A stretch of 64,000 nt of DNA from a virus: the IMG/VR virus record IMGVR_UViG_3300037141_000236, positions 24,948 through 88,947 of that record; one strand, 5' to 3'. Position 1 is the stretch's first letter. The number at the start of each line of letters is the position of its first letter. This document shows, piece after piece, positions 9,335 through 62,389 of this stretch. Position numbers and translations under genes: made by a program. The notes under the pieces were generated by a model. It saw nothing but the letters and a program-made list of their open reading frames with translations, was not told where the DNA came from and searched no databases.

Positions 9335-10618
9335 ATGAGCATAGAACGTAAAATTAAAAGAGCAGCAAAGAAATCTGATTTTCAAAAAGCTTTAGATGAC
9401 GGTGCCAAACAACAAAGAGATGCAGGTCTTTCTCTTGAGCAACGTAAAGAAGAACGCTATGAGAAATTAGAGAAGATTTTTTCTCAGTTGGGAGATCGTA
9501 AAAATAGGTATTTGTTTTACGCACCCGACATTCCTTTCCCATGTTCTACTGTTAAAGTAATATACGAACATGCCTACTACTTGAATCAAATGGGGTTCAA
9601 TGCAATTATCCTTCATGAAGTAAAAGGATTTCGCCCGAACTGGATTCAAAAACCAGAACTACTTAAAGAAGCAAAGATCATTTATCTATCTGAGAAAAAG
9701 AAATCAGGTGGATATTCTAAGCCATCATTTGCTTTCTCTCCAACAGATACAATCATTATTCCAGAAGGTTTCTGGACTGTGATGACAGGCTTCGCAGAAA
9801 CAAAGACATTACACAAAGTTGTTATGGCTTTTGGTTATGGAGGATTTGCAACAGCAGAACCTGGAGCGAACTGGGCATCATTAGGATTTACAGATGTACT
9901 TTGTGTTTCAGAACAGTTGAAAGAAGACTATTCTAAACTATGGCCAAACCTTACTTATCATGTGGTAGGTTATGATATTGATAGAGAATTATTTTCTCCT
10001 GTGGATGCGAATCTTATAAAGCCTGAAATTGCTTTATCTTGTCGTAGCAGAGAGGACGCACAATCCCTTATCAATATCTTCTACAGCAAGTATCCTTTCT
10101 TAGATATGTTCCAATTCAAGATTCTAAAGAAGATGGATACAAACGAATATGCAGAGTCACTAAGAACTAGTGCAGCAATGGTATTCGTAGATGAGAAGGC
10201 AGGGCATCCTGCTCCTCCATTAGAAGCGATTGCTTGTGGTGTAACAACTATTGGAGTATTCGGAAGAGGAATGGAACACCTTGTAGATCAAGAAGGATTT
10301 GTATGGCTTCCCTCAAACGATCCATTTATGATTGTGGAAGCAGTAGCGGAATTTTGTGTTAACTGGCTTGAGAACAATGTAAGACCAATCGAAGATAAAG
10401 CGATCCTTGATAAGTATCACACGGATGTAGTAAAGACAAAGCTTCTAAATGTATATGAAGAACTACAAATGAATAAGATCAAGTTATTCACTGCTGTTAA
10501 ACAAGCGGTAGACGAGTCAAAATTGGATACAGCAATAGATACAATGCCAATCGATTTCAAGGCAGACGAAGTAAAAACAGTAGCCGAAGTAATTGCGGAA
10601 ATAAACGAAACAAAATAA
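9335..10618 (+). CDS. GT-B glycosyltransferase
   Basis: A 427-residue sugar transferase of the GT-B fold. The N-terminal Rossmann half begins YLFYAPDIPFPCSTVK with a helix HAYYLNQMGFNA; the second half carries the donor-site signature HPAPPLEAIACGVTTIG, the E-x7-E-like region of GT4 enzymes. Cytosolic; the acceptor may be phage DNA, a virion protein or a host glycan. A further in-phase tail of 21 codons lies just after the stop in another frame (see findings). Confidence 0.8.
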   Translation: MSIERKIKRAAKKSDFQKALDDGAKQQRDAGLSLEQRKEERYEKLEKIFSQLGDRKNRYLFYAPDIPFPCSTVKVIYEHAYYLNQMGFNAIILHEVKGFRPNWIQKPELLKEAKIIYLSEKKKSGGYSKPSFAFSPTDTIIIPEGFWTVMTGFAETKTLHKVVMAFGYGGFATAEPGANWASLGFTDVLCVSEQLKEDYSKLWPNLTYHVVGYDIDRELFSPVDANLIKPEIALSCRSREDAQSLINIFYSKYPFLDMFQFKILKKMDTNEYAESLRTSAAMVFVDEKAGHPAPPLEAIACGVTTIGVFGRGMEHLVDQEGFVWLPSNDPFMIVEAVAEFCVNWLENNVRPIEDKAILDKYHTDVVKTKLLNVYEELQMNKIKLFTAVKQAVDESKLDTAIDTMPIDFKADEVKTVAEVIAEINETK

Positions 10619-10718
10619 TGAAACCATTAACATAATCCCAGCAGAACCAGAGCCTGAAAAGGAATGGTACGAAAAGAAGTAAGTTGATTATAATAACGGT
10701 TATAACGAGATTTAATAA

Positions 10719-10940
10719 ATGGCAGTAATACAACAAGTAAGAACAGCACCCACAAATTGGGTAATTGATTTTACAAAAATCGCAGCGATGTCTGCAACAT
10801 ATGAAGATATGGTTGCAATTAACGAAGCTTGCAAAATTGTAATGGGAATCAGAGGCAATACAATGTCTCAAGGGGAAGCATTAGCTTTTCATTCTCTAAT
10901 TCATTTGGGAGTATTAACAAAGGAACCAATAAAAGAATAA
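10719..10940 (+). CDS. Hypothetical protein
   Basis: A 73-residue, mostly helical protein (helices about 27-45 and 53-68). No family recognised. It starts the run that leads to the late sigma factor and baseplate genes, 36 bases after the remnant tail of the glycosyltransferase. Confidence 0.6.
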   Translation: MAVIQQVRTAPTNWVIDFTKIAAMSATYEDMVAINEACKIVMGIRGNTMSQGEALAFHSLIHLGVLTKEPIKE

Positions 10941-10941
10941 T

Positions 10942-11241
10942 ATGATAACTCATAATTCGGATATAGACACTTTAGAAATCCCTACAAATTATACGTTTCA
11001 AAACAAACTTATATATTTGGCGATACATGAAGTTCTAAAACCATATATCCATGAATCTTGGACTGAGAATACAATCATTACATTAAAGCAAGAATTATCC
11101 GGTAGACTTATAGAAACTTTTAAACTTCCATTTACAAAGATAGAAGTTACGAAGAACGGCAATGAAATAAAAGGGCATATAGAATACACCGGAGGCAATC
11201 CTTTAGAATTTATCTTATCAAACAAACACAATGAAAATTAA
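10942..11241 (+). CDS. Hypothetical protein
   Basis: A 99-residue alpha/beta protein that overlaps the next gene by 11 bases. The C-terminal half (KIEVTKNGNEIKGHIEY) looks like a beta hairpin. The position beside baseplate genes suggests a virion assembly role, unproven. Confidence 0.6.
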   Translation: MITHNSDIDTLEIPTNYTFQNKLIYLAIHEVLKPYIHESWTENTIITLKQELSGRLIETFKLPFTKIEVTKNGNEIKGHIEYTGGNPLEFILSNKHNEN

Positions 11242-11896
11242 TTATATCGTTACCACAACCTCTACAATTGAAGTATCAGAAGAAACTAGACAATCTATTG
11301 AACGCAATCTACAACCTGGAGATACTTATAACGTTGCCATATTCAATGATACTATTAACGAAGAGACTTCTTTAAATCAGATAATTTCTACATTAGGAGA
11401 CGATGGATATATTGTACTTGTTAACGATGGAAGTATTGTAAGGGAATTTGCTTCAGACATTTACGCTAAGTATGCGGATCTAGGAACTGATGATAAAGGC
11501 CCAATGGAAGTAATTAAACTTCCCATTGTAGAGCTTTGCACTCCCGTTGAAAAAGCAGCTCCTCATTTTAAAGGATTCCTCAATGCTTCAATCTGGAAAC
11601 CATACTTTGCAGAAAACGTAGGAGAACTTGATTTAACGTTGGCAACACGTGGAATCGACTTACTTCTTTATGGAGCCTTGATTCCTACAGTAATCGCAAA
11701 GAAACACGCATTCAATACAACATTAAAATATTATTCCTTCTTTGAATTCTTGAGCCGTCTTATTCGCGCTGACATTCCCGTTCTAGGGATCCCGAAAATA
11801 ACTTTGAAATGTATCAAAGATTACGAACTCAAGGATGTGCCGCAAGAAGAAAAACTTTTGCACTTTAGAGCAGCACAAGCCTCTCAATCAGCTTAA
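11231..11896 (+). CDS. Possible GT-A glycosyltransferase-like protein
   Basis: A 221-residue protein with a GT2-like arrangement: an N-terminal strand-helix unit followed by GYIVLVNDGSIV, then FKGFLNASIWKP and a region around ELDLTLATRGIDLLLYG. The expected DxD metal site is not clearly present (NDGS is the nearest), so activity is uncertain. It could be a partner of the GT-B enzyme at 9335. TAATG overlap into the following gene. Confidence 0.45.
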   Translation: MKINYIVTTTSTIEVSEETRQSIERNLQPGDTYNVAIFNDTINEETSLNQIISTLGDDGYIVLVNDGSIVREFASDIYAKYADLGTDDKGPMEVIKLPIVELCTPVEKAAPHFKGFLNASIWKPYFAENVGELDLTLATRGIDLLLYGALIPTVIAKKHAFNTTLKYYSFFEFLSRLIRADIPVLGIPKITLKCIKDYELKDVPQEEKLLHFRAAQASQSA

Positions 11897-12471
11897 TGCT
11901 CCCAAGAAGATCCAAGCCGAAGTTTAAACTTCCTTCGGTACACAGTAAAAAGATAGGCCCTCCACCTCCGTTTGTCCCAGAGGAAGAGAAAACGCTTGAA
12001 CAAATGTTGCCATCAAAAGACTTGGCAGCACTTAATAAAGCGTTGGAACAAATCCGTTCCGAAATATTCCATACAGAATCTACAGGCGAAGAGATAATTA
12101 ATCCATCAGGAACATTATCTTATTCATTAACCATCGATGGCAGTGTCCATTTCGATCCAGGACAAGTATCCAACGTTAAGATGAATGTTGAAACTAAAGG
12201 TGGTTTCGGTAATCCTGCAGCCCGAGAGGCATGTGTTGTGAATATTACAATGCATACTGATCTCGAGGGAGCAGAAGCAATCAAAGAGATATTCAATAAC
12301 TATATGACTGCAGGTGTACACCAATATACTGTACGTTTATATAAAGGAATCATATTATTCAGATCAATACAATTATACGACGCAAGAATAACTAACTACT
12401 TCACAGAAATAGATCCTGCCGGGAATGTCACAATCAATATTACGCTTCAGCCAGGCTTTTGGCACATCTAA
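11896..12471 (+). CDS. Hypothetical protein, probable virion component
   Basis: A 191-residue protein with a basic, Pro-rich N terminus (MLPRRSKPKFKLP, then GPPPPFVP) and a beta-rich C-terminal domain from about residue 66. Beta-rich fold and placement ahead of the baseplate cluster suggest a tail or baseplate part; no family recognised. Confidence 0.6.
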   Translation: MLPRRSKPKFKLPSVHSKKIGPPPPFVPEEEKTLEQMLPSKDLAALNKALEQIRSEIFHTESTGEEIINPSGTLSYSLTIDGSVHFDPGQVSNVKMNVETKGGFGNPAAREACVVNITMHTDLEGAEAIKEIFNNYMTAGVHQYTVRLYKGIILFRSIQLYDARITNYFTEIDPAGNVTINITLQPGFWHI

Positions 12472-12480
12472 TACGAATTA

Positions 12481-13278
12481 ATGCATGCGAATCAAAACGA
12501 AAATAAAGAAGTAAAGGTTGAAGTTGAGGTGAAAGTTCCTGCAAAACGCGGAAGGAAACCAAAACCTGGCTCAGTTAACCCAAAAAGTTACTTTGCCGAA
12601 GTACAAGAACAAGCTATCAAAGATTATTTGAGTGGCAATCTTTCAACTGCTCAGAAGAATAAAGTCTTTGAGACAATTATTGATCCTTGCTTAAAGAAAC
12701 TTGTGGATGGTGTCATGACCATGCCTATGTTTCAAAAGATTATAGGTATTAATAGAGATCAATTAAAGGAAGACGCATACTACCACGTAATATTCCAACT
12801 AGATAAGTTCAATCCTAATAAAATAGGTAAGTCAGGCGATCCTGTAAGAGCTTATTCCTACCTGGGAACAGTTGTAAAACACTATATTCTTGGCTTAAAG
12901 ATCCAAAATGATGGATACATCGCCAAACATGGTGGAGTTCTTGATGTGGATGAAATTGGCGAACATATCCCCGACAACAGACGTAATCCAGAAGAGTTTG
13001 AAGAACTTAAAAAGGGTCTTGTAGCACAGTTAGAGAAGACTGTGGAAACAAAACGTCTTAATAAAAACGACCTAATCGTTGGAAACACACTAAAATATAT
13101 GCTTTCCAACTGGCATAGGCTCGAATTCCAAAGTAAAAATGAGTTTGTAAGGCTTCTGTGCCATTATACTCAATTGAATCCACCAGTAGTGGCACGTAGT
13201 CTAAAGAAATATAAGTCTTTGGTATATGATATGCTAGTCCAACCAAAAGGTAAATCTAAGAAGAAACAGAAGAAGTAA
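12481..13278 (+). CDS. T4 gp55-like late sigma factor
   Basis: A 265-residue protein whose middle resembles the reduced sigma-70 region 2 of T4 gp55 and its relatives: a KFNPNK segment at residues 109-114, where sigma factors carry the conserved KF(D/N)P turn, then AYSYLGTVVKHYIL (124-137), like the region 2.3/2.4 helix. Very basic tails at both ends (KRGRKPKP and KGKSKKKQKK) would aid DNA or polymerase binding. It should direct host RNA polymerase to late promoters, and it sits immediately upstream of baseplate genes. It is longer than T4 gp55. Confidence 0.7.
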   Translation: MHANQNENKEVKVEVEVKVPAKRGRKPKPGSVNPKSYFAEVQEQAIKDYLSGNLSTAQKNKVFETIIDPCLKKLVDGVMTMPMFQKIIGINRDQLKEDAYYHVIFQLDKFNPNKIGKSGDPVRAYSYLGTVVKHYILGLKIQNDGYIAKHGGVLDVDEIGEHIPDNRRNPEEFEELKKGLVAQLEKTVETKRLNKNDLIVGNTLKYMLSNWHRLEFQSKNEFVRLLCHYTQLNPPVVARSLKKYKSLVYDMLVQPKGKSKKKQKK

Positions 13279-14762: not shown

Positions 14763-15106
14763 TGTTAAGACAGACAGGAATAGAGAATAGATTGATTACA
14801 TTGGCGTCTCAGATAACACAGTTATTGACGCCGGGAATCCCTTTGTCTGATAAAGCTAGAGAGATTGCTAGACTTAATGCCATTGCAACGACAGAAACGA
14901 AAGATTCAGGATTTGTACCGGTAACTTTTGGCAATACGTTTATCTTCCCACACAATTTAGGTTATACGCCGAGTGTAACTTTGATTGTAGGATTCAGACA
15001 GCCATCAGATTTCCCTTACATTTCAGCAATAGATGATAATACTGTCACAGTAACGTGTGCATCGAATAATATTAATCCAACATTAATAAGAGTAATCTGT
15101 CATTAA
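14762..15106 (+). CDS. Probable baseplate/tail accessory protein
   Basis: A 114-residue protein with an N-terminal helix and a C-terminal beta domain (VTFGNTFIFPHNLGYTP) of the kind found at the ends of tail-associated phage proteins, where the F-x-H-N-L-G-Y-x-P turn recurs. It lies in the baseplate cluster, coupled by TAATG to the hub gene and abutting gp25. Confidence 0.55.
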   Translation: MLRQTGIENRLITLASQITQLLTPGIPLSDKAREIARLNAIATTETKDSGFVPVTFGNTFIFPHNLGYTPSVTLIVGFRQPSDFPYISAIDDNTVTVTCASNNINPTLIRVICH

Positions 15107-15481
15107 ATGGCTAAACCTAGTGCTTCGCTTCATTTTCCTTTTACAGAGGATCTCAATACGCACTCTTTATCAAGGGCGACGACTCCTAATGATGCGATAC
15201 AAAGCGCAATAACCGCGTTTTTACTAACGGAGAAGGGCCAACGTAGAGGTAATGCGATTGGGAGCTTTCTCCCCACATTACAACACCAATTAATTCCTTC
15301 ATCTGCTTTACCAGGATTTGCAGATGAACTACAATCAGAGCTACAACAACAATTTCCTGGAATCATATTTAATGATATTACATTAACACAAAATTTAGAT
15401 GATCAAGTTGCTAATTTAGAAGTATCAATTACGTTTTCAACTCCCATCACCGATGTCACCCAATTTTCGATAATCATATAA
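15107..15481 (+). CDS. gp25: Baseplate wedge protein gp25-like
   Basis: A 124-residue member of the GPW/gp25 family: the FPFTEDLNTHSLSRATTPND start, a TAFLLTEKGQRRGN motif (the L-x-T-x-x-G-x-R-x-x-x-P-x-x-G-like element) and a C-terminal beta strand pair. In T4 gp25 joins the sheath and the wedge. Order gp25 then gp6 matches contractile-tail modules. Confidence 0.85.
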   Translation: MAKPSASLHFPFTEDLNTHSLSRATTPNDAIQSAITAFLLTEKGQRRGNAIGSFLPTLQHQLIPSSALPGFADELQSELQQQFPGIIFNDITLTQNLDDQVANLEVSITFSTPITDVTQFSIII

Positions 15482-17685
15482 TGGCAACAGTATCAACTAA
15501 TCCAACGGTAGCAACTCCTTCTTCTACAGCAGGAACTCAAATTAACTATTTGAGTCGTGACTTTAATTCTATCCGTGCGGATTTAATAAACTGGAGTAAG
15601 TTATACCATCCTGACAAATTTATCTTTATAAACGACGCCACGCCTGATATGATGTATCTAGAAATGGTTGCATTCGTGGGAGATATGCTTTCTTTCTATA
15701 CAGATAAAACATTTAACGAATCATTCTTATCAACAGCTCAAGCTGCAGAATCAATTACTCGCATTGCCAAAGACCTGGGATTCTTTGAAACAGGTTCTAC
15801 TCCTGCACAAACACAAGTAACACTTACATTAACTGTTCCTTTTGTTACAATTAGTGGAGTTGTACAGCCAGACCCTGATTATTTAGTATCTATTAAATCA
15901 GGGATGGCTTTGCAATCAGATAGTGGAGTAAGTTTTGAAGTATTAGAAGAAGTTAACTTTGCAGACCAATTTAATAGAAATGTTATTCCTAATTTGGATG
16001 GTAATAATCTAATTATAAATTTCACCATAACTAAAACAGCTGTGGCGATTGCAGGACAAACGAAAATACAACGTTTCTTTGTATCCAATAACTTAGCAAA
16101 ACCTTTCTTAGTTGTTACAATGGACGATCAAGACATTACACAAATTGTAAGTATCTTGAATGTCCCCACAAATACATTCGTTGCTCCAATAGATGATGAC
16201 TTCAATGATCCTAATAAGACTTGGACAGAAGTAAGAGCTCTTTCTGATTCCACAGCATTTTTACCTTTAAGTCCGACAACAGTATCGACACAAGCTTTAG
16301 CTAGTTTCATTACTCCTGCAGTTCAACAAGGGGTTGATACTCCTATATCTAAAAGATTTATTGTTCGTAGAGATGTGAACGATATTGTTTCCTTAACATT
16401 TGGATCAAGCAGCACGTCATTTGCGTCATTTAACAATATGATTCAGACCGCGGTGGATCCAAACACTGTTTCTTTCAACCAAGTATTAAATAATACTTCT
16501 TTGGGAGAGATTCCTTTACCTAATTCAACCTTATTCATTAAGTATAGAGTAGGTGGTGGTGAACAAACGAATATTATTACAGGACAATTGAATACAATAG
16601 TTGCAAAGAACTTCTTTCCAGCAAGCCCTACTGCAAACTTAACAATCTTACAACAAGTAAGAAATTCATTATCTGTAGCCAATTTAATTCCGGCACTTGG
16701 TGGTAAAGACGTACCTTCAAGTGAAGAGATAAGAGTTACTGCTGGAAAAGTATTCGCAGCACAAGACAGAGCTGTTACTTATGAAGACGTTAAAGCTATT
16801 CTAAGTACAATGCCTCCAGAATTTGGAAGGCCATTTAGAATTTCATATGAAGAAATGAAACCTATGGTGGCTAACTTCCAACAAGTAGAAAATGGTGTTA
16901 ACACCTTGATGGCAAATCTATTAGCTGATCCAACAGCAATTGGTAGGCAATTGATTGCACAACAAATATCCAGCTTCATGGCAAATCTAAGAACAGGAAC
17001 AGCTATGATTGGAGCAAGTAACGTTGTATCTACATTGGATGCTGTATCGTTACAATTACTGGGCCAACTTCCAACATTATGGATTGGAGAAAAAGCAAGG
17101 TTATATGTATTAGGTATCGATGAATCAGGGCAATTACTTACAGCGTTCAAAGATCCTACAAGTGGATTATTTATATCTCCAAATCAATTATTAAAACAAA
17201 ACATACAACAGTTTCTTATTTCTAAAAGAGTAATAGGAGATTGGATTGATGTTGTGGATGCAAGAGTAGTAAACTTTCAAGTAGAATTTACAGTATTAAC
17301 AGACAAGAAGAATAAACAACAAGTGTTAGTTGACTGTTTAAATAAGTTAAGAGATTATTTCAATTCAAATAATTGGAACATCAATCAGCCTATTATGATA
17401 GCAAATGTCGTTACTGCTCTTCAGGAAATTAATGGAGTAGTCAATGTCGTTGACATTAGCTTTTATAACATATTTGGGTTAGGAAATGCGAGTCAAGACC
17501 CTGTCAGTGGCAGAGTTTATCAACCGGTTGAAAGTGGAAGATATAGAAACAATAGCCCTATACCAGCTTCTGTTGCAAATAATAGGTATCTTATGATGCC
17601 CGTGAATAACATAATTGTTTCTTACCCAGATCAGCAGTTCGAAATCCGATTTCCGGAAAGTGACCTCATAGCCAAAGCTTTATAG
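15481..17685 (+). CDS. gp6: Baseplate wedge protein gp6-like (baseplate J)
   Basis: A 734-residue protein, close to T4 gp6 in length. The N terminus INYLSRDFNSIRADLINW with ATPDMMYLEMVAFVGDMLSFY is the conserved opening of gp6/baseplate J proteins; the C-terminal part holds the NVVTALQEINGVVNVVDI segment of the same family. It forms the wedge ring of a contractile tail, so this is a myovirus-type virion. Overlaps gp25 by TAATG. Confidence 0.85.
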   Translation: MATVSTNPTVATPSSTAGTQINYLSRDFNSIRADLINWSKLYHPDKFIFINDATPDMMYLEMVAFVGDMLSFYTDKTFNESFLSTAQAAESITRIAKDLGFFETGSTPAQTQVTLTLTVPFVTISGVVQPDPDYLVSIKSGMALQSDSGVSFEVLEEVNFADQFNRNVIPNLDGNNLIINFTITKTAVAIAGQTKIQRFFVSNNLAKPFLVVTMDDQDITQIVSILNVPTNTFVAPIDDDFNDPNKTWTEVRALSDSTAFLPLSPTTVSTQALASFITPAVQQGVDTPISKRFIVRRDVNDIVSLTFGSSSTSFASFNNMIQTAVDPNTVSFNQVLNNTSLGEIPLPNSTLFIKYRVGGGEQTNIITGQLNTIVAKNFFPASPTANLTILQQVRNSLSVANLIPALGGKDVPSSEEIRVTAGKVFAAQDRAVTYEDVKAILSTMPPEFGRPFRISYEEMKPMVANFQQVENGVNTLMANLLADPTAIGRQLIAQQISSFMANLRTGTAMIGASNVVSTLDAVSLQLLGQLPTLWIGEKARLYVLGIDESGQLLTAFKDPTSGLFISPNQLLKQNIQQFLISKRVIGDWIDVVDARVVNFQVEFTVLTDKKNKQQVLVDCLNKLRDYFNSNNWNINQPIMIANVVTALQEINGVVNVVDISFYNIFGLGNASQDPVSGRVYQPVESGRYRNNSPIPASVANNRYLMMPVNNIIVSYPDQQFEIRFPESDLIAKAL

Positions 17686-32713: not shown

Positions 32714-32968
32714 ATGATCATTTCATTTCTCTTTGGTTTGTTTGTTTCTCTTGCTGGGGTTATTGTTTATGCAGTGACCACAAGCGATAGTGAATCACAA
32801 TCCATAAAAGCATTGGAAGGTGAAAGAGATCGTTTAAAAGGTTCGCAGCAACATATGTTTGAAATGTGCGAAGACTTCAAAGAGTGTAATCAGGAATTGA
32901 AAGTCGAAAACGAAAAATTAAAAGTTAACGACCCGTATGAGAAAATGCGGAAAGAATGTGGGCTATGA
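32714..32968 (+). CDS. TM/coiled-coil protein with MRKECGL tail
   Basis: An 84-residue protein: N-terminal TM helix (residues 1-22), then a coiled coil, ending DPYEKMRKECGL, a variant of the shared C-terminal tail. The start of 32956 lies inside the tail codons. The same plan, TM then coil then tail, recurs in the next gene, so the two are probably paralogs. Confidence 0.65.
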   Translation: MIISFLFGLFVSLAGVIVYAVTTSDSESQSIKALEGERDRLKGSQQHMFEMCEDFKECNQELKVENEKLKVNDPYEKMRKECGL

Positions 32969-33465
32969 TTTTACTTATCTGTTCTATTATTTGGGGTATC
33001 ATCGGGTTAATCATGTCAATAGTATTTGTTGCTGACAGCGACAATACGGATGATCACAATGCCCTTGAGTGTTTTCTTATCTTCCTGTGTATTACTGCTT
33101 TTGGGATTCCTTTATTAGCAGCAGCTGGTATTCACAATATATGGATGCAGTTTAATAAGAAATCCTATAAGAAAGAAAAAGCATTAGCTGTAAAGATCAT
33201 TGATGACATGCAAAAGAAGATTGATGAATTGGAACGTGAAAAAGAAGAAGATGATAACTGTATTAAACGAATGGCTCGTGAATATCAGGATCTGAATACT
33301 GCTTACAAAAAGCTCATTCACGACGATCCCATAGAAAAGATGCGCAGAGAGATTGGTTTGGGCATTGAACCTGAAGAAGAAAAACTTACAGTAAGACCAG
33401 CAATAAAATTCACCAAGAAACGTAAAAAGAAACCAGTGTCTACTGGTTCTTCATCAACATTTTAA
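32956..33465 (+). CDS. TM/coiled-coil protein with internal MRREIGL motif
   Basis: A 169-residue protein with two TM helices (residues 1-26 and 36-56), a coiled coil (71-110) and DPIEKMRREIGL, which parallels the DPYEKMRKECGL end of the previous protein. Here a further basic tail of about 35 residues follows the motif (KKRKKKPVSTGSSSTF), so the motif need not be terminal. Confidence 0.65.
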   Translation: MWAMILLICSIIWGIIGLIMSIVFVADSDNTDDHNALECFLIFLCITAFGIPLLAAAGIHNIWMQFNKKSYKKEKALAVKIIDDMQKKIDELEREKEEDDNCIKRMAREYQDLNTAYKKLIHDDPIEKMRREIGLGIEPEEEKLTVRPAIKFTKKRKKKPVSTGSSSTF

Positions 33466-40859: not shown

Positions 40860-41128
40860 AGCCGGAAGATTTTAGATTAGGAGCTACAGCCGTTGTCGTT
40901 GGTGATGATCAAACCGGCTACCATAATGGTGAGGTAATCATAATGAAAGGAGTTTATTGGTCTTGGAGGACTGGATGCCATTATGTTTTAACAAAATCCT
41001 TGCGGGATCAAAACCAAAACTTATCTATTGAAGGAAATATCAGTTTGAGTGCTTTGGAATATCCCACGACACCTTTGGAAAAGGAAATGAAAAGAATTAA
41101 AAGCGAGATCAATAGCGAAGGAAAATGA
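40856..41128 (+). CDS. Small barrel protein, tail IKSEINSEG
   Basis: A 90-residue tandem paralog of 40605-40859, with MKPEDFRLGATAVVVGDD at the start and MKRIKSEINSEGK at the end. ATGA overlap on both sides. Confidence 0.65.
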   Translation: MKPEDFRLGATAVVVGDDQTGYHNGEVIIMKGVYWSWRTGCHYVLTKSLRDQNQNLSIEGNISLSALEYPTTPLEKEMKRIKSEINSEGK

Positions 41129-41457
41129 ATACACACAAATATCATTTAGGCGACATTACTTTAAAAGCAGGTATTGAACATGAAGTTATATCAATCGTTT
41201 GGCAAAAGAGATATAAAACATTTGTTTATGGTATCACAAACGGGTCAAAAGGATCTGTTACCGATACACAAGCTTACTACCATAAATTCCTTCTTGCGGA
41301 TGATAGTTATGATATAATAGAATGGGATACTAACAAACGATTTCTTAAATGTGCAGTACAATTCGTTGAAGAAGATAGTTTATCAATCATTCGAACGGGC
41401 ATAGCTGCCTACATTGAGCAGCATGAACGCATAATCAGAGAAGAAATTGGCTTGTGA
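41125..41457 (+). CDS. Small barrel protein, tail IREEIGL
   Basis: A 110-residue member: KYHLGDITLKAG opening and HERIIREEIGL end. The next gene starts 30 bases later, so the complete tail is kept without start-stop overlap. Confidence 0.65.
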   Translation: MNTHKYHLGDITLKAGIEHEVISIVWQKRYKTFVYGITNGSKGSVTDTQAYYHKFLLADDSYDIIEWDTNKRFLKCAVQFVEEDSLSIIRTGIAAYIEQHERIIREEIGL

Positions 41458-44541: not shown

Positions 44542-44861
44542 CAAATTTAAAGCCAGGCGATTGGGTTGTAATGGGCGAACCAGGTTCTGGTTGGACTCTG
44601 AATGAAAAAGGACTTGTCGCACAAGTTAAAGAAGTGGGGCGTTTTTCTTACGATTATGATATTGTTTTAGATTCTGCATCAAACCCTGGATTAATAGGAA
44701 CCCAGTGCGCAGGAGAAGTTTCAGGATTAAAAGGCTGCACTTCTGAAAGATTATATACTGCATCACGAGTGCAAATAGAAGAACAGCTTTCAAGACTTCC
44801 TGGAACATTCCATTATGCTTTACGTATAATAAAACAAGAAATAGGGTTATGTGTCACTTAG
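44538..44861 (+). CDS. SH3-like small protein, tail IKQEIGL
   Basis: A 107-residue member: NLKPGDWVVMGEPGSGWT opening; ends RIIKQEIGLCVT, with three extra residues because the downstream start (44849) lies inside the tail codons. Confidence 0.7.
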   Translation: MTNLKPGDWVVMGEPGSGWTLNEKGLVAQVKEVGRFSYDYDIVLDSASNPGLIGTQCAGEVSGLKGCTSERLYTASRVQIEEQLSRLPGTFHYALRIIKQEIGLCVT

Positions 44862-49757: not shown

Positions 49758-49969
49758 AAAGCGAAACAATAAAATCATTTACTTATAGTGAATTGCTAAC
49801 CAAGTGGGAAGCATCCTACAAGAAGCAACGTGAACTGTTTGCTGAAGCAGATAAGTTCGGAACTGATCCAAAAGTGTGGCCGGTATTGACATTGAAAGCC
49901 TGTGAACAAAGGGATATCACAGATTCATACGCAATGGAAATCTTCGAACGTAAAGGATTCAAATCATGA
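49754..49969 (+). CDS. Small helical protein
   Basis: A 71-residue protein of two or three helices (SELLTKWEASYKKQRELFAE; VLTLKACEQRDI). Overlaps both neighbours by four bases. Confidence 0.6.
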   Translation: MKSETIKSFTYSELLTKWEASYKKQRELFAEADKFGTDPKVWPVLTLKACEQRDITDSYAMEIFERKGFKS

Positions 49970-50334
49970 AAACAGACGTTCTCATAGCAACAGTACTTCT
50001 TGGTTGGAAAGAAGATAGAAGTTTCCCTGACAAAGGAAGAGTGTTTCGTTCTCCCGGCGGAGCTCTTGAAATGGATACCACTTTCAAATTCAAAACAGAT
50101 TATAATGAATTGATGAAGGCATTCAGCGCCATTGAACAAATGGGCTACACCATCGAATTAATATCTTTTAGAGTTGGCAATAAAGGTCCCACTAAGTATG
50201 TAGCTTTTATTCACGAAGACCAAAAAACCCTTATTTGCAGATTTACTTCTTTTGACAGGCTTGAGGCAATGTATTTGGTAGTATGCCATTTTGCTTTATG
50301 GATTTCAAAAGGCAAACCAAAAATAGAAATATGA
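49966..50334 (+). CDS. Hypothetical protein
   Basis: A 122-residue alpha/beta protein (LMKAFSAIEQMGYTIELISF; DRLEAMYLVVCHFALWIS). Unrecognised; ATGA overlaps on both sides. Confidence 0.6.
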   Translation: MKTDVLIATVLLGWKEDRSFPDKGRVFRSPGGALEMDTTFKFKTDYNELMKAFSAIEQMGYTIELISFRVGNKGPTKYVAFIHEDQKTLICRFTSFDRLEAMYLVVCHFALWISKGKPKIEI

Positions 50335-50624
50335 AATATCATTGGGTAATACTTAAACACGTTCCCACAGGTAAATGGCTATCAACCAACGCTCAAGGAG
50401 AAACAGAACTCGTTGATGCACCTGAAGATGCTTTGCCTTGTGATCTGAACGCCTGGGAAGGTAACATCATCAACATGGAAGATGCAACGGCAACGGATGG
50501 TACAATCATTACCGGTGATGATATCATGGTGTACAATTATACTGTGAAGGTTACAAAACCAATTCCAGGTGCATGCACAACATTCAAAGAAAATAACACA
50601 ACTGATTCAATATGGATCCAGTAG
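50331..50624 (+). CDS. Hypothetical protein
   Basis: A 97-residue protein starting at 50331 (MKYHWVILKHVPTGKWL), with beta-rich character. The C terminus overlaps the small TM gene by 13 bases. Confidence 0.6.
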   Translation: MKYHWVILKHVPTGKWLSTNAQGETELVDAPEDALPCDLNAWEGNIINMEDATATDGTIITGDDIMVYNYTVKVTKPIPGACTTFKENNTTDSIWIQ

Positions 50625-50737
50625 AATTTATCCAAGGGGAACTACAAACATTGCAATGCACATTAGGCGTTGTATTATTCATCATACTCGGTTGCCTGAC
50701 TACAATGGCAATTTGGGTTTATCGCAAAAAGAAATAA
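50612..50737 (+). CDS. Small single-TM protein, 41 aa
   Basis: Short protein with one membrane helix (LGVVLFIILGCLTTMAIWVY) and a basic end RKKK. Immediately after its TAA, the same frame continues as IRKEIGL and a stop, so it may once have carried the shared tail. Confidence 0.6.
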   Translation: MDPVEFIQGELQTLQCTLGVVLFIILGCLTTMAIWVYRKKK

Positions 50738-50760
50738 ATCAGAAAGGAAATTGGATTATG
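50738..50760 (+). other. Untranslated copy of the shared tail sequence
   Basis: Directly after the TAA at 50735-50737, in the same frame, codons read I-R-K-E-I-G-L followed by TGA (50759-50761) overlapping the next ATG (50758). It is the same sequence that ends neighbouring genes, but not translated unless the stop is read through. Confidence 0.7.
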
Positions 50761-51081
50761 AATTTCAAGGTAAGAGATTGGGTTATATATGAAGGTCAGC
50801 CTTATCAAATTGCTTTAATACTGGGCAATGTAAAAAGCAATGATTGTTTACTCATTGTACCAAAAGGTTTTAAAACTGCTTTCCAATTAAATGCAGGAAG
50901 TATCCCTGCCTGGAAAACCTTAATAAAAGGTTTTCCAGGCAAAAAGTTCGAAGTAATACAGGCAGAAGAGTTAGTTCATGTGGGATCTGTTTATTACTTC
51001 TGGTGCACGACAGATGAACTTTCCGGTACGGTTGGAATAACTGTTGAGGAAATAAAGATTAAAAAAGAAATAGGTCTATGA
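50758..51081 (+). CDS. SH3-like small protein, tail IKKEIGL
   Basis: A 107-residue protein opening NFKVRDWVIYEGQPYQIALI, an SH3/KOW-like plan in which the usual G-D is R-D, and ending EIKIKKEIGL. ATGA overlap with the next gene. Confidence 0.65.
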   Translation: MNFKVRDWVIYEGQPYQIALILGNVKSNDCLLIVPKGFKTAFQLNAGSIPAWKTLIKGFPGKKFEVIQAEELVHVGSVYYFWCTTDELSGTVGITVEEIKIKKEIGL

Positions 51082-51383
51082 GCAAATTCAAAATAGGAGA
51101 TCGTGTTGAATGTCTCACCATCAAAGAACTTATTGTAAAGAACCCTACTTTTGGTAAAGCTAAGATTACTGAAGTTGGGTCATGGGCAGGTGCAGGCTAC
51201 AAAGAAGGCAAAAGGTTTACAATTCGAACAGAGAATAATGGAAAGGATGAAACTGCATACTTTCCTCTTGAAATAGATGCTGATCCACATAGAGGCGTTT
51301 ATGGTTGGGCTTTGAAACTATCTCTTGCCACCATTGAGGAAGTAGAACAAGATATCTTAAAAGAGATTTATTCTAAGGAATAA
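51078..51383 (+). CDS. SH3-like small protein, tail LKEIYSKE
   Basis: A 101-residue member: SKFKIGDRVECLTIKEL opening and EEVEQDILKEIYSKE end. Last gene of its operon; no downstream start overlaps the tail. Confidence 0.65.
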   Translation: MSKFKIGDRVECLTIKELIVKNPTFGKAKITEVGSWAGAGYKEGKRFTIRTENNGKDETAYFPLEIDADPHRGVYGWALKLSLATIEEVEQDILKEIYSKE

Positions 51384-54892: not shown

Positions 54893-55114
54893 ATGACACA
54901 GGAAGAAGATGACCAAATAACACGTGTGGCTTTCGTAGCTGCACTCATTGCAGCTGAAGCTCCTGCCGATATCAACGAAGAAGTTTTATTTGTTATGGCA
55001 AAAAAAGCGATTGCTGGCATGGGTCCAAAAGAATTAGCCGAGTTGGAAGCATACAAGGAACAATTCAAAGCTTGGGATGCAAATAAAGACAAAGAAGAAA
55101 TATGGCGAAGGTAG
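54893..55114 (+). CDS. Helical protein, tail KEEIW
   Basis: A 73-residue helical protein starting at 54893 (MTQEEDDQITRVAF). It is a paralog of the next gene: ITRVAFVAALIAAEA and PKELAELEAYKEQFKAW match ISRVDFLVALAKASA and PKQLEILDAKKEAWLKW. It ends KDKEEIWRR, a W-form variant of the shared tail, with the next ATGGC inside the codons. Confidence 0.6.
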   Translation: MTQEEDDQITRVAFVAALIAAEAPADINEEVLFVMAKKAIAGMGPKELAELEAYKEQFKAWDANKDKEEIWRR

Positions 55115-55350
55115 AAATTTCAAGAGTAGACTTTCTTGTTGCATTGGCAAAAGCAAGCGCAGCTACTCCAGAAGAACAAGAATTGGTTAAAGACAGTCTT
55201 GCACTGATTTTGAATGCACATTTGTTTTTAGAAGAAGCAACACCCAAACAACTTGAAATATTGGATGCAAAGAAAGAAGCTTGGTTGAAATGGAAGAACA
55301 GTGGCGAGTCAGCTGAAGACACAATCAAAAGAGAAATCGGACTAATATGA
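55102..55350 (+). CDS. Helical protein, tail IKREIGLI
   Basis: An 82-residue tandem paralog of 54893-55114, all-helical, ending EDTIKREIGLI. It shows the shared tail on a fold different from the SH3-like family. Confidence 0.65.
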   Translation: MAKVEISRVDFLVALAKASAATPEEQELVKDSLALILNAHLFLEEATPKQLEILDAKKEAWLKWKNSGESAEDTIKREIGLI

Positions 55351-57505: not shown

Positions 57506-57808
57506 ATGTTTAAAGAAGGAGACCAATTCGTTGTCAAGACAAAAGAACAGTTTGCTGCTGAATTTGGAACAAAGGAAAACTCTAATAACTTTCTTTTGGA
57601 ATCTGATGGCCACATAATTTATTTTAATGATGCCAACATGGGTAAATTTTATGGTAAAGTTGTAACAATATGTCAGATAATGGGAAGAGGTCGGTATACA
57701 ATAAAGGAAGAACAAATTTATAAATGGACAGCTGAAATGTTTCAACTAAATATTACAGCAACCTTGGCTTCCGCCGAACACATAATAAGAGAAGAAATTG
57801 GGTTATGA
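57506..57808 (+). CDS. SH3-like small protein, tail IREEIGL
   Basis: A 100-residue member: MFKEGDQFVVKTKEQFAAEFG opening is close to that of 59933 (LKEGDLVRFKTWEEL). KVVTICQIMGRGRYTI forms the second strand pair; it ends EHIIREEIGL. Confidence 0.7.
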   Translation: MFKEGDQFVVKTKEQFAAEFGTKENSNNFLLESDGHIIYFNDANMGKFYGKVVTICQIMGRGRYTIKEEQIYKWTAEMFQLNITATLASAEHIIREEIGL

Positions 57809-58143
57809 TACTATATGCAATAAAATATAAGCCCGGAGATAAAGTTCGTGTAAGATTCTTTGAAGACCTTCAAACGAAATATTCTTCTGACCCAAGAACC
57901 AGCTGTTTACTTATTCCTGCTGAGACAGATAGGAATTCGATTCAATTTTTAGGGTCTATGACACTCTTGTGTGGTAAAATAGTTACCATTTCAAATGTTA
58001 TCCCGCAAGACTCTCATAAAAAGAAATATGATCGTTATTATGTTGTAGAAGACGACAATGACAGTTATTGGTCAGATGCAATGTTTATTTCTCCAGAAGA
58101 AAAAGCTACATTACAAATTAAACAAGAGATAGGTTTAGTATGA
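57805..58143 (+). CDS. SH3-like small protein, tail IKQEIGLV
   Basis: A 112-residue member: KYKPGDKVRVRFFEDLQ opening, GKIVTISNVIPQD and end LQIKQEIGLV. The next gene is convergent on the minus strand, so the tail is conserved without any downstream start to couple to. Confidence 0.7.
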   Translation: MILYAIKYKPGDKVRVRFFEDLQTKYSSDPRTSCLLIPAETDRNSIQFLGSMTLLCGKIVTISNVIPQDSHKKKYDRYYVVEDDNDSYWSDAMFISPEEKATLQIKQEIGLV

Positions 58144-58962
58144 TCCACACTTGTTAACAATCTTATAACCTTTGCTGGTGATTTTATGATAAGCTTTACG
58201 GATCCCTTTAAGAAGTCTCTTAACCATTGATTCTTTCATTTCAGGGCCAAAGCTCTTTGATTTTCTACCTCCCCAATTCTGGCCCATGAATGGTTCTTCC
58301 GACGCCAAATGAATACAAACAATCTCTGGAATGAACTTCCTTTTACCTGCAGGAAATTGTTTAAGATGTAATACATCAGTACGATCGTATGCTGCATGTT
58401 CTCTTGGATAAGTTATGACTCCAGATCCAATTGGATTCCACATTTGAAAGAAACCTATTGGCCAATAACCATCTCCTTTGTATTGAACTACTCGTTGTCC
58501 AATTGGAAAATGATGCATATGCATATAAACCCAGCCATCATAGATTGGTTTATGAATACTTTGATGGATAAACTCTTGCCAAGCTTTATATGAATTGCAC
58601 ATTAAGCGATCTATGCCATAGATACAGTCTTTATCTAGCGATAAACGATCTAATAACTCTTTTGTAAGAGGGGGAAGCCAGATATCAGCATCTAGTTGCA
58701 CTACCCAACCATCCTTATCTAATTTCTTGAGGCCTTCGTTGATTCCCAAAGCTTTGTTTGCCACAGGGCCATCAGTATAGAACGCATCAGTTTGAATGCA
58801 AGGAACATTATAAAATTGACATACTTGGAAAGTAGCCAAGTCTTTAGTGTCGGTCACAACAACCATACGATTAAAGAGAGATTTATTATTTGGAAGGGTG
58901 ACTTTTAGAAAATCACTGTAGCCAATACAAACTACAACTGCTTCGATCTTGATTTGGGACAT
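58135..58962 (-). CDS. GT-A glycosyltransferase
   Basis: A 275-residue sugar transferase with a GT-A fold: N-terminal strand EAVVVCIGYSDFL, then VVVTDTKD, ALGINEGLKK and WVVQLDADIWLPP with the metal-binding D91-A-D93. WNPIGSGVITYP lies in the acceptor half; the end is basic. The acceptor is unknown. Together with the enzymes at 9335 and perhaps 11231 it suggests glycosylation of phage DNA or virion. Last gene of the minus-strand block. Confidence 0.78.
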   Translation of the reverse strand: MSQIKIEAVVVCIGYSDFLKVTLPNNKSLFNRMVVVTDTKDLATFQVCQFYNVPCIQTDAFYTDGPVANKALGINEGLKKLDKDGWVVQLDADIWLPPLTKELLDRLSLDKDCIYGIDRLMCNSYKAWQEFIHQSIHKPIYDGWVYMHMHHFPIGQRVVQYKGDGYWPIGFFQMWNPIGSGVITYPREHAAYDRTDVLHLKQFPAGKRKFIPEIVCIHLASEEPFMGQNWGGRKSKSFGPEMKESMVKRLLKGIRKAYHKITSKGYKIVNKCGSY

Positions 58963-60869: not shown

Positions 60870-61128
60870 GAAACCTGACATGGATAGCATAAAGCAAATG
60901 ATTATGGATTTGCATGTTGCGGAACATCGCATAAGGAATGAGTGTGGCCTGACACCTGCAAATTTAACATTGGAAGAACGCTTGGCACTTAGTCTTTTAC
61001 ATTTAAAACAAAGCCAAGATGCTTTCATGAAAGCTGTTAATGAAACGGCGGGCATTACTGAGGAAGCAAAGGCCGCAGCTGCAAAGAAACTTAAAGAAAT
61101 GGCTAAAAAGAAAGGAGAAAGTAAATGA
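60859..61128 (+). CDS. Helical protein with internal IRNECGL motif
   Basis: An 89-residue helical protein. Near the N terminus EHRIRNECGLTPAN repeats the shared motif in the Cys form seen at 32968, followed by about 60 further residues ending in Lys-rich helix. Start at 60859 or 60844. Confidence 0.6.
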   Translation: MKRKKPDMDSIKQMIMDLHVAEHRIRNECGLTPANLTLEERLALSLLHLKQSQDAFMKAVNETAGITEEAKAAAAKKLKEMAKKKGESK

Positions 61129-61418
61129 TTTGGCTAATAGGTTATTTGGCAATTGGATTAATTTCACTGGGTGTGCTTTTATACAAGTATAAGAAAGACA
61201 CCCAAGAGATGGAAAAGGAACTTATGGTCTTTGCGGTCTTTTTAACAATCCTTGGCTGGCCAATAGTATTTGTCGGCGGAGCTATTCTTCAAAGGAATCT
61301 TAATAAGACAGTTCGCACACAAGCGGAACTGTTGGAACAAGAAAAGATGGCCGATATGGATGATGAAGAAAAAGCCAACTACATAATGATGCGCGACATT
61401 TTTAAAAAGAAACCATGA
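61125..61418 (+). CDS. Small two-TM membrane protein
   Basis: A 97-residue protein with TM segments at about residues 2-20 and 35-55, then a charged helical tail. ATGA overlaps on both sides. Unrecognised. Confidence 0.62.
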   Translation: MIWLIGYLAIGLISLGVLLYKYKKDTQEMEKELMVFAVFLTILGWPIVFVGGAILQRNLNKTVRTQAELLEQEKMADMDDEEKANYIMMRDIFKKKP

Positions 61419-61732
61419 AAACAAAGAAGTTTAACTTGGGAGATATTGTTAGGGATGATAATTCATCAACAACCGGTAAGATAATCATCATTGCGCAAAA
61501 CAGAGAGTCGAAGACCTATCATTATGGAATTGGAGATCCTAATAATGGGTACACAATTAAACATTTCTTCAAAAAATACGAATCACATTATTTTTTCACA
61601 TTTGATGGTGAAATGGAAGCCTCAGAAGAGGAAGTCACCTTTCACGATGAAAGTGTGTTGACTTTATTGACACCCGTGAATCCTTTAATTTCTGTCGAAC
61701 AACAAATAAGAAAAGAGATATGGCACCATTAA
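61415..61732 (+). CDS. SH3-like small protein, tail IRKEIWHH
   Basis: A 105-residue member: KKFNLGDIVRDDNS opening, GKIIIIAQNRESKTYHYGIG strand pair, end EQQIRKEIWHH with the next ATGGC inside the codons. Confidence 0.7.
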   Translation: MKTKKFNLGDIVRDDNSSTTGKIIIIAQNRESKTYHYGIGDPNNGYTIKHFFKKYESHYFFTFDGEMEASEEEVTFHDESVLTLLTPVNPLISVEQQIRKEIWHH

Positions 61733-62046
61733 AACCAGGGGATTGTATTGTAAGAACATTACTAGGTGGTAACAGCAGAACCGCCTATAAATGCAACCAC
61801 ATTTATAAAGTACTACGTCATGAAGAGGATACTGTTTTCACTGAAATGGATTCGGTGGGAAGTAATCATAATGGTTGGGGAGTAGGACACTTTAGGAAAG
61901 CAACTCTCGAAGAAGCAGAGTTGTATGATCTGTTTGGCATCTGCGATTGCAACATCATTGATACAATGGAAAAAATGTTATTGGTTAGATACGAAAGAAT
62001 TATTAAAAGAGAAATTTATGGCAACAAAAAAGATCAAGCTTGTTAA
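61720..62046 (+). CDS. SH3-like small protein, tail IKREIYGNKK
   Basis: A 108-residue member: LKPGDCIVRTLLGG opening, HIYKVLRHEEDTVFTEM strands, tail YERIIKREIYGNKKDQAC. The next gene starts inside the tail codons (TTTATGGC). Confidence 0.68.
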   Translation: MAPLKPGDCIVRTLLGGNSRTAYKCNHIYKVLRHEEDTVFTEMDSVGSNHNGWGVGHFRKATLEEAELYDLFGICDCNIIDTMEKMLLVRYERIIKREIYGNKKDQAC

Positions 62047-62389
62047 GCCGAAATTCAAATACAAATATCACGTGGGCGATATTATTTGGGCCAATTGGGC
62101 ACCTGATGATGGATATGATCTTGAATTAGGAAGAGAAATTGTTGCTGTCATTTATAGAACTGACCTTAACGATCTCTTTTATGCAACAAAACCCATTGTA
62201 GGAGAAGAGCCCACCGGTTGTTTAATTGAACCGAATGATGATTATAAATTCATTGAGCTTTTACCTGGACAACCAACAAATGTTGAATTGGGTTTATATA
62301 TAAGTGAAGAAGAAGTTGATCATTGCGAGCCCATGACACCATTAAAGAAAGCCGAAGCAAAAATAAAACTTGAAATAGGATTAGTATGA
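62018..62389 (+). CDS. SH3-like small protein, tail IKLEIGLV
   Basis: A 123-residue member starting at 62018 (MATKKIKLVKPKFK): YHVGDIIWANWAPDDG opening, EIVAVIYRTDLNDLFYAT strands, end AKIKLEIGLV. ATGA overlap with the next gene. Confidence 0.68.
   Translation: MATKKIKLVKPKFKYKYHVGDIIWANWAPDDGYDLELGREIVAVIYRTDLNDLFYATKPIVGEEPTGCLIEPNDDYKFIELLPGQPTNVELGLYISEEEVDHCEPMTPLKKAEAKIKLEIGLV

Follow-up and report, generated by a model that had tools for sequence, protein, structure and literature searches.

Locus Organization

The window analyzed here comprises bases 24948–88947 (64,000 nucleotides) of a phage contig of 88.9 kb. It includes a T4-like capsid gene, the annotated matches of which include Flavobacterium phages. 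In this window, a short open reading frame (ORF) encoding a small membrane protein is closed by a TAA codon, and the codons that follow directly behind it spell a peptide tail found at the ends of many other genes of this phage (Table 1). The seven tail codons (50738–50758) continue in the frame of the membrane-protein ORF and are followed by their own TGA at 50759–50761. The ATG of the next gene occupies 50758–50760, giving a 4-nt ATGA overlap with that TGA, and a Shine–Dalgarno (SD)-like string, AGAAAGGA, lies within the orphan tail at 50741–50748. The initial annotation had described RKKK-TAA, then IRKEIGL and a stop, then an overlapping ATG, and both its coordinates and its reading proved exact. 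Its assignment of the product as a transmembrane (TM) protein is supported by hydropathy, with a 19-residue Kyte–Doolittle maximum of 2.48 in the one hydrophobic segment, which is flanked by acidic residues on the N-terminal side and basic residues on the C-terminal side. The codon use of the ORF is coding-like; it falls at the 16th percentile of real gene windows, a value reached by only 1.7% of off-frame windows. No homologue of the membrane protein was found in Pfam/PHROG searches or in scans for relatives.

Table 1. Coordinates of the orphan tail, its neighbors, and informative tail-bearing genes (positions in the window)
Feature	Position	Strand	Description
Small single-pass membrane-protein ORF	50612–50737	+	41 aa, MDPVEFIQGELQTLQCTLGVVLFIILGCLTTMAIWVYRKKK; ends RKKK-TAA, without tail; hydropathy, codon use
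In-frame TAA stop	50735–50737	+	directly 5' of the tail codons, at the site of the pre-tail codon
Orphan tail, IRKEIGL-stop	50738–50761	+	ATC AGA AAG GAA ATT GGA TTA TGA; without own start codon
Next gene, small-protein array member	50758–51081	+	107 aa; N-terminal FKxxDxV, probable SH3-like barrel; own tail IKKEIGL-stop
Translated tail of gene 50758, IKKEIGL-stop	51058–51081	+	ATGA overlap with 51078–51383
Membrane protein with tail (precedent)	32714–32968	+	ends NDPYEKMRKECGL-stop; hydropathy, tail listing
Membrane protein with tail and extension (precedent)	32956–33465	+	MRREIGL (codons from 33340), then 34-residue extension; profile scan, hydropathy
Tail-bearing gene, IKQEIGLV-stop	57805–58143	+	no same-strand start behind; next + start 1.8 kb off; converging gene 58135–58962

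The Tail Is Shared by an Array of Small Proteins

The strict EIGL form of the motif I-[KR]-x-E-I-G-L closes at least 18 further ORFs, and about 30 end in the motif when the variants EIW, EIY, and EVYG are included. It is found on small proteins of an array with an N-terminal F/Y-K-x-G-D-x-V motif and a probable SH3-like barrel; the array proteins are only weakly interrelated, which makes the tail the best conserved region among them. The small paralogues are joined through ATGA overlaps, and the array has clearly been rearranged and duplicated. In a structure model of a small array protein (pLDDT 69.6), the tail forms, with moderate confidence, the end of a C-terminal helix. A fold search with this model returned SH3/CAP-Gly-like matches only, none of them significant, and searches of Pfam, PHROGs, and phage records with the array members tested gave nothing meaningful. 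A comparable tail array was absent from every other record searched, and the shared tail is more remarkable than its orphan copy.

Several features of the array were recorded in passing. The roughly 30 small and mostly poorly related proteins with the motif or a variant of it at their ends are spread over 22160–63712. At the variant tails EIW/EIY/EVYG (38268, 38889, 60191, 61706, 62002, and 62701), ATGG stands directly after KEI or KEV (GAAATATGG, GTTTATGG), and in most of them the ATG of ATGG is the start of the next gene, so that the junction is shortened and the last tail residues are changed. The tail IKREIYGNKKDQAC-stop lies in another frame at 62002–62046, which suggests that an overlooked gene ends there and that the ORF at 61925–62389 really starts at ATG 62027 or nearby. 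The converse of the orphan, loss of a stop, is seen in EIGLCVT at 44829–44861, where TGA became TGT at 44850–44852 and added three residues, and in the extended tail at 33340–33465.

Selection on the Tails Appears to Act on the Peptide

The glutamate of the tail is invariant (25 of 25), and its codons are divided between GAA and GAG at 20:5, the 80:20 ratio of the genome. Codon choice at Ile1, Glu4, and Ile5 was likewise the same as in the genome (P = 0.13, 0.62, and 0.96, respectively). The glycine codons show a mild excess of GGG (P = 0.016), and the leucine codons end in A because this final A belongs to the ATG of the next gene in the ATGA overlap. Tail and coupled start also occur apart from each other. 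The gene at 57805 has no close start behind its tail, nor do those at 41125–41457, 55102–55350, and 61415–61732, and 19 of the 35 ATGA junctions have no tail. Given an invariant glutamate with genome-like codons, tails without a next start, and tail-less ATGA junctions, the tails look, as judged from sequence, to be selected as peptide and not as DNA. The initial annotation had singled out the orphan as the one place where the protein function of the tail could be separated from an RNA function; this was wrong, since the tails without a close start and the tail-less junctions make the two roles separable at many places.

The Orphan Tail Is Unique and Was Probably Translated until Recently

A degenerate 24-base tail pattern, searched with up to two mismatches, matched 14 sites of the window, as opposed to no site in any of 100 shuffles, so the orphan is not a chance occurrence. 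Thirteen of the matches are C termini of in-frame ORFs and the fourteenth is the orphan. Among the 140 gene stops of the window, only that at 50737 is followed by an in-frame tail; three further matches of this search fall in intergenic sequence or in the start or body of the gene that comes next. When all six frames of the window were scanned with a peptide profile, no other tail was located immediately after an in-frame stop, and no decayed orphan tails were seen.

The orphan differs from the translated tails at a mean of 3.1 of seven third positions and 2.0 first and second positions; the translated tails differ among themselves at 3.0 and 2.2, respectively. The untranslated remainder thus has the substitution pattern of translated copies, which suggests that its lineage was translated until recently. 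The orphan is not a recent DNA copy of another tail, and its lineage looks to have been translated for most of its history. In simulations of free decay, in which the start codon was fixed and any other RNA constraint was ignored, the probability that the motif stayed intact was 0.31 at 0.1, 0.037 at 0.3, and 0.0075 at 0.5 substitutions per site. Such low survival argues that the orphan was detached recently or is still read, although intact orphans are the easily noticed ones and this biases the estimate toward a recent event. Of 30 translated tails, 16 are preceded by a codon that a single substitution would turn into TAA (AAA in eight, CAA in seven, and TTA in one), which makes this an easy place for a nonsense change.

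A Recent Nonsense Substitution as the Favored Explanation

These data favor, with moderate confidence, a recent loss of the tail from the 50612 gene by a nonsense substitution, with the relic now serving as the leader of gene 50758. The locus has the arrangement of a nonsense-truncated gene, an in-frame stop followed at once by the undamaged rest of the coding sequence; the tail begins at the very next codon and keeps the frame. The tail is present on further membrane proteins of the phage (32714–32968 and 32956–33465), and tail ends are labile in the opposite direction too, as in the TGA-to-TGT change and the 33340 extension described above. It is the pre-tail codons close to TAA, the existence of tailed membrane proteins, and the tail that lost its TGA that incline the balance this way. 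Against it, RKKK followed by a stop is a natural way for a small membrane protein to end, and this one may never have had a tail. The initial annotation had offered three options for the locus; the recent nonsense change is the best fit, by virtue of the codon pattern, the abutting in-frame stop, and the tailed membrane proteins, whereas neither stop readthrough nor a role of the string in starting the next gene held up (see below).

In the proposed course of events, the tail is a protein element that closes a C-terminal helix and is encoded by about 30 phage genes. The 50612 gene would most likely once have been among them, until a recent single nonsense substitution converted its pre-tail codon from AAA or CAA to TAA and left the membrane protein ending in RKKK. 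The tail codons would persist because gene 50758 has its start codon and initiation region within them. The former 4-nt ATGA overlap would have become a 20-nt gap between the TAA and the start of gene 50758, and therefore gene 50758 probably starts by independent initiation and not by coupling. In gene pairs of Escherichia coli and Haloferax, a gap of about 20 nt nearly abolished termination–reinitiation (PMC10666635); gaps of about this length are ordinary in the phage genome.

The orphan resembles known nonsense truncations of C termini that leave a short untranslated relic, in that an in-frame stop is followed by intact former coding sequence up to the old stop. It differs from a plain truncation in that the lost piece is common to about 30 genes of the same genome and the relic holds the start codon of the next gene. 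With pairs that use ATGA termination–reinitiation (PMC10666635, PMC6728339), and with the 35 such junctions of the phage, it shares the 4-nt overlap of old stop and next start, but here 20 nt separate the actual stop from the start, and at that spacing the tested pairs had lost almost all coupling. The orphan itself is a small evolutionary event, the loss of a short C-terminal motif. In a phage that carries one tail on about 30 poorly related proteins, it offers a natural comparison and suggests that a bearer can lose its tail. Because the relic still bears the marks of past translation, it also supports the treatment of the tails as protein elements.

The main rival is a rearrangement junction, which we consider unlikely but the most serious of the alternatives. 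Here the membrane gene would never have had a tail; either a rearrangement joined it to the final 21 nt of a tail gene that has since been lost, or gene 50758 brought the end of its old neighbor along as a leader. The clear history of rearrangement and duplication among the small ATGA-joined paralogues is compatible with this, as are the natural RKKK end and a second membrane gene (61125–61418) that adjoins the array and has no tail. The join would, however, have had to fall in frame (a one-in-three chance) and precisely where the tail codons begin, leaving no extra bases, and in array genes located behind non-tail genes no vestigial tail precedes the start.

Possible Readthrough, Frameshifting, or Assembly Error

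Conditional readthrough of the UAA, or a frameshift, could give some molecules of the membrane protein the tail. In favor of this, the tail is intact and in frame and has a substitution pattern that looks translated, and the base at +4 is A and not U, which makes the strongest terminator. These points are outweighed by the identity of the stop, since UAA is the least read-through stop codon in bacteria (PMC5289835). TAA is the commonest stop in the window, ending 82 of its 140 genes, and is therefore not recoded. No tRNA gene was found on the contig, and folding of the region behind 50737 detected no structure beyond chance (z = -0.6 to -1.1). The locus therefore has none of the hallmarks of programmed readthrough, be it a leaky stop or context, a recoding tRNA, or a stimulatory structure. 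The initial suggestion that readthrough adds the tail thus has almost nothing in its favor, and we regard conditional readthrough or frameshifting as the least probable of the explanations weighed here. Equally implausible is an extension of this idea in which the stop would act as a regulated switch, with readthrough giving a minor, membrane-anchored display of the tail and termination giving a plain anchor and an uncoupled gene 50758 with an SD-like start; were it true, the tail would be shown to whatever partner recognizes it.

For a -1 frameshift, the ORF end offers C AAA AAG, and no X XXY YYZ site leading into the extension was found. The -1 frame enters gene 50758 and not the tail, and upstream it is not coding-like (-0.12 bits per codon). 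A frameshift yielding a fusion with gene 50758 was also rejected.

If the stop stemmed from an error in assembly or sequencing, or from a minor strain variant, the population would have no stop at this position. The locus is represented by a single metagenome record in which one base decides the matter; set against this, the membrane-protein ORF and its surroundings are otherwise intact, and a single-base error creating a stop at precisely this codon is a priori rare. We judge this explanation highly improbable, if a little less so than readthrough.

A Possible Role of the Orphan Tail as a Ribosome-Binding Leader

The remaining alternative, that the orphan string was kept for RNA reasons as the ribosome-binding leader of gene 50758, appears improbable as well, though not to the degree of readthrough or assembly error. 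The orphan occupies positions -20 to -1 relative to the start of that gene, and AGAAAGGA is complementary to the 3' end of 16S rRNA (-10.3 kcal/mol) at a suitable distance (9-nt spacer), a pairing that ties for third strongest among 140 genes. The lean of the tail glycine codons to GGG and the final A of the leucine codons also accord with an RNA role. General use of SD pairing is not evident in this phage, however. Its genes are SD-depleted relative to controls; across all gene starts of the window, the start regions are A-rich and the mean SD pairing energy is -1.86 kcal/mol, vs. -2.75 kcal/mol in controls. The same avoidance is seen in Bacteroidota, in which normal ribosomes make no use of SD pairing (PMC9976891). 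The phage thus resembles Bacteroidota-type SD-less initiation (PMC9976891) in its genome-wide SD depletion and A-rich start regions, and departs from it in that the orphan tail forms one of its strongest SD-like strings. A search of the contig for a phage bS21 gene, a possible reason for SD use, found none. Also against a leader role, the orphan string as an initiation region scores below 84% of non-tail starts, a translated tail (63333) uses identical AAG GAA codons, and, as described above, there are tails without a next start and coupled starts without a tail. The earlier proposal that the tail string helps to start the next gene accordingly finds no support as a general function. Most synonymous positions are free and the initiation score is low, leaving the SD-like AGAAAGGA as the one feature in its favor. 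Very strong SD-like strings were seen at a handful of genes in the window (61125, 3191, 50758, 63353, and 38052).

Relatives and Other Records

Scans of IMG/VR and phage records returned no relative covering the 50612–50761 locus, and an ancestral tailed form was not seen among them. Queries with the next gene, the upstream gene (49966–50334), the membrane protein, an AAA ATPase, and two tail DNA patterns yielded no usable relative, and a scan with a sigma factor yielded distant relatives only, without the tail motif. The proteins concerned gave no meaningful score against any Pfam or PHROG family. Relatives of the capsid gene (L008–L011) are fragments of 17–19 kb from elsewhere in the genome. 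In the closest of them, L008, whose capsid is 91% identical, a protein encoded at 11821–12084 on the minus strand ends in EKMKAEIGLK; from its EIGLK end, the tail probably exists in a second, related phage. No tail array was detected in relatives among huge phages and Flavobacterium phages.

In GTDB genomes, the tail pattern occurred in 51 stretches with one match each, and many of these belong to an unrelated Poribacteria family or lie at the end of a SufC-like protein. Among many Poribacteria and Latescibacteria loci (L026–L072), an unrelated small-protein family ends in GGGKPWSQIKKEIGL, with seven C-terminal residues identical to those of the tail. Two further observations concern L001. An SNF2-like helicase ORF at 10587–13187 on the minus strand contains an apparent intein, delimited by eye from CLPGEAPI to SKNC, and ORFs near structural genes (14853–15620 and 16777–17649) look like GIY-YIG endonucleases.
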